Below, one piece after another: positions 483-8,745 of a DNA stretch of 45,453 nt; within the stretch, counting starts at the first letter, position 1; each line of letters starts with the position of its first letter. The notes below the pieces were generated by a model that searched no databases, was not told where the DNA came from, and worked only from the letters and a program-made list of their open reading frames with translations. Position numbers and translations under genes: made by a program. This stretch comes from Desulfobacterales bacterium (lineage in GTDB: Bacteria > Desulfobacterota > Desulfobacteria > Desulfobacterales > JAAELO01): the NCBI GenBank assembly GCA_024226555.1, contig JAAELO010000871.1, forward strand, positions 1-45,453, read 5' to 3'.

Positions 483-609
483 GGGAATCTCTAATAATTA
501 GAATTTTTGATGAAATACAAGGCTGAGAAAAAAACAACGGGTTGATTTTACTACAGTTGTTTTTTTGAAAAAGTAGTATTTCGCAAAAAGATCAGTTATT
601 AGGTTCCCT
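483..609. repeat. MITE-like element, copy 2
   Basis: A 127-bp element starting 'gggaatctctaataatta' and ending 'ttattaggttccct', imperfect inverted ends of the same type as the other copies. It is flanked on both sides by GAT, a possible target duplication. It sits 19 bp upstream of the amber-reading tRNA. A plausible promoter (TTGACA at 453-458, then a 17-bp gap and TACTGA at 476-481) lies just before it, so any tRNA transcript from that promoter would run through the element. Confidence 0.75.
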
Positions 610-628
610 GATGCAAGTTGAAAAATTT

Positions 629-704
629 GGGCGTATAACTCAGTGATTAGAGTGGGGGTCTCTAAAACCTCAAGTCAGGGGTTCAATTCCCCTTGCGCCC
701 ACCA
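629..704 (+). tRNA. tRNA with CTA anticodon (amber-reading, suppressor type)
   Basis: A 76-nt cloverleaf with encoded CCA. The acceptor stem is gggcgta/tgcgccc (7 bp with one G-U), the D stem actc/gagt, and the anticodon stem ggggt/acctc with loop ctctaaa. The variable loop has 5 nt, and the T arm agggg-ttcaatt-cccct is perfect. Loop positions 34-36 read C-T-A, which pairs with UAG. The discriminator base is A. Unlike tRNA-Pyl it has two bases between acceptor and D stem, a 5-bp anticodon stem and a normal variable loop. The D loop (agtgatta) has A where G19 is expected, so the G19-C56 contact would be lost. The charged amino acid cannot be inferred. It may be a functional suppressor or a drifting tRNA paralogue. 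Confidence 0.85.
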
Positions 705-2518: not shown

Positions 2519-2869
2519 TCATTTAGATAAACGGTCCTGCCTTCTGATAATTTCGAATTCGTGGTGTTCAAAAAAACCTTTCCTTACATTGTCCTCTTTC
2601 AACATTCTGATAACAGGAATTTTGTCAACTAAAGCAGGTGTTTGCTCTTTGCCAAGTTTAAGCATCCTTTTTAATGCTGACAACTCTTTGTTAATAGACG
2701 CATTTGCAGCACCTATAGAGATTCTGTTACCGATATATTCAGAAATTGAAACAGAAGTTATTTTTTGAACTGAATATTTTTCAAAGAACTTTAAGTGGTT
2801 CAAGCTGGTTCTCAACCTCCTGATCTTTTTGTTGTTAATCTTGTAATCATTTTCAATTAAAGATACCAA
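2519..2869 (-). pseudogene. Truncated tyrosine-recombinase (phage integrase) N-terminal fragment
   Basis: A 116-residue reading frame that looks like the core-binding, SAM-like N-terminal domain of tyrosine recombinases. It has 'RLRTSLNHLKFFEKY', then 'ITSVSISEYIGNRI' and 'ASINKELSALKRMLKLG', the usual helix pattern before the catalytic domain. It ends soon after 'FFEHHEFEIIRR', where the catalytic domain with its R-H-R-Y residues should begin, and I find no continuation in any frame down to 2400. It is therefore a broken integrase and not an active one. It may be the scar of a lost element. It is 11 kb from the prophage edge, so it is unlikely to belong to that prophage. Confidence 0.6.
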
Positions 2870-8584: not shown

Positions 8585-8745
8585 AGGGAACCTCTACTAA
8601 TTAGAATTTTTGATGAAAAACAAGGCGTAACAAAAAACAACGAGTTGATTCGTTTATAAAAAAGGTTTTATTTTATAAAGTTTACAGTTTTATTATTGTT
8701 ATAACGATGTGTTTCGCAAAAAGATCAGTTATTAGAGATTCCCTA
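8585..8745. repeat. MITE-like element, copy 3
   Basis: A 161-bp copy with ends 'agggaacctctac' and 'ttagagattccct'. It is longer than copies 2 and 4 because about 30 AT-rich bases are inserted in the middle. The flanks read TATA on both sides of the GGGAA/TTCCC ends, a possible target duplication. It lies 48 bp before the pentapeptide gene. Confidence 0.8.

Follow-up and report, generated by a model that had tools for sequence, protein, structure and literature searches.

Can a bacterium that keeps the ordinary genetic code also keep a tRNA that reads one of its stop codons, UAG, and what would such a tRNA do there? The question is raised by a contig from a Desulfobacterales bacterium, analysed here over its entire 45,453 bases (the window), in which ARAGORN finds a sole tRNA, at 629-704 on the forward strand, with the anticodon cta. 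We lean, with moderate confidence, toward the explanation that this CTA tRNA is a rare natural amber suppressor, an extra tRNA that works weakly. By the relevant passages of PMC13092985, bacteria with the standard code can have natural suppressor tRNAs, which occur in 0.3% of the genomes studied there. As those passages describe them, they resemble the CTA tRNA in reading a stop codon in a cell whose stops are ordinary and whose release factor is intact. The 0.3% counts stop-reading tRNAs of any sort, whereas the tRNA described here is predicted to read UAG, carries an A at position 19, and has no close relative that our searches found. Bacterial chromosomes seldom hold stray suppressor tRNAs, and the kind is already known; the CTA tRNA adds one. 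The present case is a single gene, a suppressor predicted from its sequence. If it works, it would make it possible to examine how readthrough is tolerated in a cell that has release factor RF1 and 23% TAG stops, and whether such a host expresses TAG-recoded phage genes.

The tRNA gene and its contig

The tRNA gene has the following features.

629-704, forward strand: type I tRNA gene with anticodon CTA and encoded CCA (ARAGORN; Rfam RF00005; pairing check)
646, forward strand: A at tRNA position 19, replacing G (sequence)
662-664, forward strand: anticodon CTA (tRNA positions 34-36) within the loop CTCTAAA (ARAGORN position 34; sequence)
701, forward strand: discriminator base A73, with pairs G1-C72, G2-C71, and G3-C70 (sequence and pairing)

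The preliminary description, made from the letters of the window, took this gene for a canonical tRNA with a CTA anticodon, and the evidence bears it out. Rfam model RF00005 aligns with 629-701 at 65.3 bits against a gathering cut-off of 29 and, on the question of a pseudo-tRNA, this score lies within the range of the genome's own 58 tRNA matches (51.7-73.8 bits; 150 of 492 first-look candidates were scored). All 21 pairs of the cloverleaf are standard, with G-U taken as standard. The acceptor stem has 7 pairs and is separated by two bases from the D stem (ACTC/GAGT), which carries the D loop AGTGATTA. The anticodon stem has 5 bp, one of them G-U (GGGGT/ACCTC), the variable loop 5 nt (AAGTC), and the T stem (AGGGG/CCCCT) bears the T loop TTCAATT; the 3' end consists of A73 and the CCA encoded at 702-704. 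The normal D-arm spacing, 5-bp anticodon stem, and 5-nt variable loop originally given for the gene are therefore all correct. Its loop, CTCTAAA, has what an amber suppressor loop calls for: seven nucleotides, CUA as the anticodon, a U at position 33, and a purine at position 37. The minimum-energy fold of the single strand (-28.7 kcal/mol) is not the cloverleaf (-27.9 kcal/mol); judged by hairpin count, some ordinary host tRNAs likewise do not adopt the cloverleaf in their predicted fold.

The single flaw is the one already pointed out from the sequence, the replacement of G19 by A at window position 646, which makes the usual G19-C56 pair impossible. The D loop holds GG in 45 of the 45 other distinct tRNAs from the genome's stretches, and A19 occurs in none of them. 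At viral-contig loci, 4 of 107 CTA tRNAs and 5 of 58 other tRNAs lack the GG; one of those four CTA tRNAs, at locus L145, has by eye the same G-A order as the CTA tRNA. The loss of G19 should weaken the tRNA somewhat.

The contig around the gene carries these further features.

57-83 and 8709-8735 (one mismatch): further copies of an interspersed repeat
576-602, forward strand: copy of the interspersed repeat, 26 bases ahead of the tRNA
2519-2869, reverse strand: truncated tyrosine-integrase relic of 116 aa (PHROG 1 integrase, E 1e-8, profile positions 182-280 of 611)
about 16821-45453, no strand assigned: prophage (Pfam and PHROGs; left boundary approximate; extends to the contig end)

With up to 3 mismatches allowed, the interspersed repeat, TATTTCGCAAAAAGANCAGTTATTAG, occurs 512 times across the genome (0 for a reversed-pattern control), or at about one copy per 15 kb. 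The three copies in the window, at 57, 576, and 8709, tie the contig to the present genome; no copy was found beyond 8.7 kb in the window, where the prophage sits. Given that abundance, a special association of the tRNA with the repeat beside it is ruled out. The ORFs close to the tRNA encode a 99-aa product of no known family, an AraC/DJ-1 regulator, a DJ-1 protein, the integrase relic, and an EamA transporter. The relic lies 1.8 kb from the tRNA with two genes intervening and scores 20.5 bits against Pfam Phage_int_SAM_1, below the cut-off of 22.3; it is a possible trace of a one-time mobile element. Integration at the CTA tRNA itself is unsupported, since a search of the window with the 23 bases of its 3' end, allowing up to 5 substitutions, turned up no second copy; the same search over 40 host stretches and loci L073-L102 gave a single match, the end of a tRNA-Gly in L066. 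The prophage, of the tailed-phage type, has genes for tail, capsid, protease, portal, terminase (TerL), holin (GTA-type), lysis, replication, and a tape-measure-like protein. The CTA tRNA lies outside it, 16 kb away.

Stop codon use in the host genome

A suppressor to which the host had adapted might be expected to leave its mark on the use of TAG. We counted stops in 685,921 bases, made up of 40 stretches plus the window, covering 9% of the genome and mostly chosen around tRNAs, with ORFs taken by simple picking rather than by a gene caller. Of the 434 ORFs with 150 codons or more, 264 stop at TAA, 100 (23%) at TAG, and 70 at TGA. TAG accounts for 16.7% of stop triplets on both strands and 23% of ORF ends, so it is not avoided as a stop.

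The preliminary description had also supposed that backup stops would soften readthrough, and this did not hold. A TAA or TGA follows within 10 codons after 51 of 100 TAG-ending ORFs, 135 of 263 TAA-ending ORFs, and 38 of 69 TGA-ending ORFs (one TAA and one TGA ORF were left out for insufficient sequence downstream), and the two out-of-frame controls after TAG, at the same loci and over the same distance, give 53 of 100 and 49 of 100. The picture is unchanged for ORFs of at least 250 codons (35 of 70 after TAG; 37 and 35 out of frame). Because the rate after TAG equals both that after TAA and those of the out-of-frame controls, backup stops as an adaptation are rejected for the sampled 9% of the genome. 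The supposition had leaned on four TAG-ending genes with an in-frame TAA within 10 codons. All four are real, the small gene being on the minus strand, but the list was selective: among 41 ORFs hand-picked from 60 in the window, 8 end in TAG, three of the four among them, and a TAA or TGA lies within 10 codons in 6 and not in the other 2 (P = 0.16 at a base rate of 51%). Within the 9% of the genome that was sampled, stop use is normal and there are no backup stops, an outcome that had been named in advance as speaking against the proposal. This normal use of TAG argues against a host-wide adaptation, not against the tRNA gene itself.

Nor is recoding of UAG seen in the sample. Stops flanked by coding-like open frames number 1 of 14,523 for TAG, 8 of 43,756 for TAA, and 0 of 28,793 for TGA in the 686 kb, and recoded genes find no support there in the form of a TAG excess between such frames. 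Reassignment of UAG from stop to sense can be set aside: TAG ends 100 of 434 ORFs, one TAG in 14,523 lies between coding-like frames, and RF1 is kept, at 512.8 bits against a cut-off of 423.25. The genome uses the ordinary code, and no sign of adaptation to the CTA tRNA was found in it.

Relatives of the CTA tRNA

The genome is a draft of 7.69 Mb in 904 contigs, 97.95% complete and 3.7% contaminated. Stretches and loci picked to cover all 58 tRNA matches gave 46 distinct tRNA sequences of 33 anticodon types, one of which, the tRNA at 629-704, has the anticodon CTA; it is also the single match of a type I CTA pattern in the whole genome. Neither Ala(TGC) nor Ile(GAT) was seen among the 46. These two usually lie within rRNA operons, which drafts lose, and the other anticodons missing from the list are covered by wobble.

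A comparison with the host tRNAs, proposed at the outset as the way to a parent isoacceptor, could be run and yielded no clear parent. With gaps, the closest are Met(cat) at 56/76, the host maximum, Val(tac) at 55/76, and Ala(ggc) at 53/76; without gaps, Val(tac) is the top host tRNA at 51/76. Against Val(tac), both bases differ in 7 pairs and a single base in 1, yet 21 of 21 still pair; because the double-sided changes leave every pair intact, the cloverleaf was maintained by selection at some time. Trp was considered as the parent and rejected: the anticodon arm core is one base off that of the host Trp (GGTCTCcAAAACC to GGTCTCtAAAACC), but the discriminator is A73 where Trp has G73, which leaves a resemblance only.

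Two other host tRNAs are unusual in their own right. One, at L038:4909-4984 (+), is named Asp and has the anticodon ATC, a T-A first pair, and A73; its flanking genes belong to ordinary Pfam families. The other, at L053:9133-9207 (-), is the lowest-scoring tRNA of the genome (51.7 bits), with a Trp anticodon and without CCA; none of five neighbouring ORFs tested has a Pfam family, and L053 is possibly a phage or foreign contig.

Beyond the host, close relatives were sought and not found. Order-wide, blastn at E 1e-4 matched 1 of 194 sampled genomes and the type I CTA pattern 1 of 389, in both cases the window's own; the family of this genome has no other genome in the collection. In the GTDB 220 collection, from which the window's own genome is perhaps absent, a narrow pattern gave 0 matches and the strict CTCTAAA pattern found 7 contigs in 84,980 species genomes, 6 of them with a CTA tRNA by ARAGORN; these patterns demand a D arm of the CTCAG/AGAG type and count CTA tRNAs of that type alone. 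Phage-family genes were present at L227 (endolysin) and L231 (HNH endonuclease and DnaB-like helicase), the tested proteins of L228 and L229 had no PHROG match, and ordinary bacterial genes adjoin the CTA tRNAs of L225, L226, and L230. The last of these, at L230:979-1054 (-), stands on a Planctomycetia MAG contig that also has ruvB and a tRNA-Arg.

In IMG/VR, a broader pattern matched at least 120 stretches. ARAGORN calls a CTA tRNA in 75 of 80 of the matches listed, and 96 of the 120 matches listed satisfy the strict CTCTAAA pattern. Phage-borne amber tRNAs thus share with the CTA tRNA the type I body and, in most matches listed, the CTCTAAA loop; CCA is encoded in 71 of 116 distinct sequences among those matches, as it is in the CTA tRNA. 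They differ in that the window tRNA lies outside the prophage, comes with no TAG recoding seen in the sample, and is at most 57/76 identical to any of those compared (80 of the 120 loci listed). Since the viral CTA tRNAs are scarcely closer than the host maximum of 56/76, a phage origin is weakly supported. Three tight patterns had no matches in IMG/VR, and blastn at E 1e-3 found none among 50,697 phage or 72,556 plasmid records. Type I CTCTAAA amber tRNAs are frequent in viruses and seldom seen in bacterial genomes, and these searches turned up no donor.

Explanations for the gene, and other amber tRNAs

Viral contigs often have tRNAs of this shape and loop, bacterial genomes seldom do, and no close relative was found in the order, which suggests to us that the CTA tRNA arrived by horizontal transfer, likeliest from a phage or other mobile element, which perhaps left it behind. 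If transcribed, it would be charged mainly by lysyl-tRNA synthetase (LysRS), given U35, A73, and the G1-C72 pair. Among host tRNAs with encoded CCA, only Lys(ttt), Tyr(gta), and the odd Asp(atc) have both A73 and U35; the variable arm of the host Tyr tRNAs is long, and the G3-U70 pair of Ala is missing from the CTA tRNA. The genome encodes a class II bacterial LysRS (657.9 bits; cut-off 427.6). According to the passages of PMC9976931 on this enzyme, several U35 amber suppressors inserted lysine, A73 is important, and G73 makes a tRNA partly glutamine-inserting; the same passages have LysRS use all three anticodon bases. Because position 36, here A rather than U, is one of these, charging by LysRS may be poor. 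Lysine is probably the likeliest residue that the CTA tRNA would insert at UAG. Reading UAG at modest efficiency against RF1, it would cause low-level lysine readthrough, which could be tolerable because about half of the TAG-ended ORFs meet another stop within 10 codons by chance. We hold a fuller proposal to be unlikely: that a suppressor gained by horizontal transfer, working and inserting lysine at UAG, has become a lasting trait of this ordinary-code bacterium, where it extends proteins at the C-terminus at a low level and allows mobile genes that are interrupted by amber codons or recoded with TAG to be expressed.

The strongest rival to a weakly working suppressor is an unexpressed or decaying relic: a tRNA from a mobile element, recent and so well folded, but silent or uncharged and without effect on the cell. 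We regard it as a real, if doubtful, possibility. The A at position 19 fits it, as do the integrase remnant nearby, the normal TAG use without adaptation, and the lack of any relative found that could show conservation. It is further consistent with the promoter signal, which is not above chance (1 promoter-like site in 400-900, none standing out, against 2.0 expected by shuffling). What speaks for a functional tRNA instead is the soundness of the molecule itself, with its full set of stem pairs, its CCA, and a covariance score in the range of host tRNAs.

The gene could instead belong to a phage or satellite whose genes are recoded with TAG, and work only when that element is active, an explanation that we consider very unlikely. 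CTA tRNAs of this kind are frequent in viral contigs. This one stands outside the prophage, beside host repeats and genes that, save for the integrase relic, lack phage families; read with the standard code, the prophage ORFs for terminase, portal, protease, and capsid have no interruption; and the sample has no TAG excess between coding-like frames. A TAG-recoded phage has reportedly been published, as an example alongside phage-borne amber suppressor tRNAs.

That an ordinary tRNA owes the CTA to a mistake in assembly or sequencing has very little to commend it. The assembly is a draft in 904 contigs, the gene begins 628 bases from a contig start, and Ala(TGC) and Ile(GAT) are missing among the tRNAs seen. 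Against these points, the body is at most 56/76 identical to any other host tRNA found, 193 other genomes of the order give no match at E 1e-4, and the gene lacks the G3-U70 pair of Ala; it is unlikely that an ordinary tRNA was misread.

A pyrrolysine tRNA has next to no chance of being the answer, as the preliminary description had rightly held: the CTA anticodon and the ARAGORN label tRNA-Pyl suggest it, yet the label follows the anticodon and is given likewise to other canonical CTA tRNAs, the shape is canonical, the anticodon stem having 5 bp and the D stem being preceded by two bases, and in the 97.95% complete draft the best PylS match reaches 23.9 bits against a cut-off of 178.15, with sub-cut-off matches also in 12 of 14 control genomes. 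In tRNA-Pyl, by the passages of PMC8318568 that describe it, the anticodon stem is longer by a nucleotide and the spacer before the D stem shorter by a base; tRNA-Pyl shares the CUA anticodon with the CTA tRNA, which differs in its canonical shape and in a host with no PylRS over the cut-off.

CTA tRNAs also occur on bacterial contigs of the Obscuribacterales, at L225:679-754 (-), in a Candidatus Obscuribacterales MAG, at L226:6284-6359 (-), in Cyanobacteria bacterium DS2.3.42, and at L247:1501-1572 (+). They share with the window tRNA the bacterial contig and the CTCTAAA loop and differ in body. The tRNAs of L225 and L226 are 99% identical and lie inside a stretch that is 81% alike over 886 bases; in Pfam alone, eight neighbouring proteins tested showed no phage family. 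At E 1e-8 the L225 tRNA matches in 6 of 53 genomes of its order: those of L225 and L226, a third (G420) that has both its own CTA tRNA (L247) and a tRNA-Lys(ctt) (L243), and three that match through tRNA-Lys(ctt), Thr(cgt), and Thr(cgt). CTA tRNAs were therefore seen in 3 of the 53 genomes. The anticodon arm of L225, GAGCTCCGGTCTCTAAAACCGAGGGT, is one base from that of the L243 tRNA-Lys(CTT), GAGCTCCGGTCTCTTAAACCGAGGGT, which suggests a lysine tRNA turned amber reader; judging by these arms, the L225 and L226 CTA tRNAs are likely to derive from tRNA-Lys(CTT).
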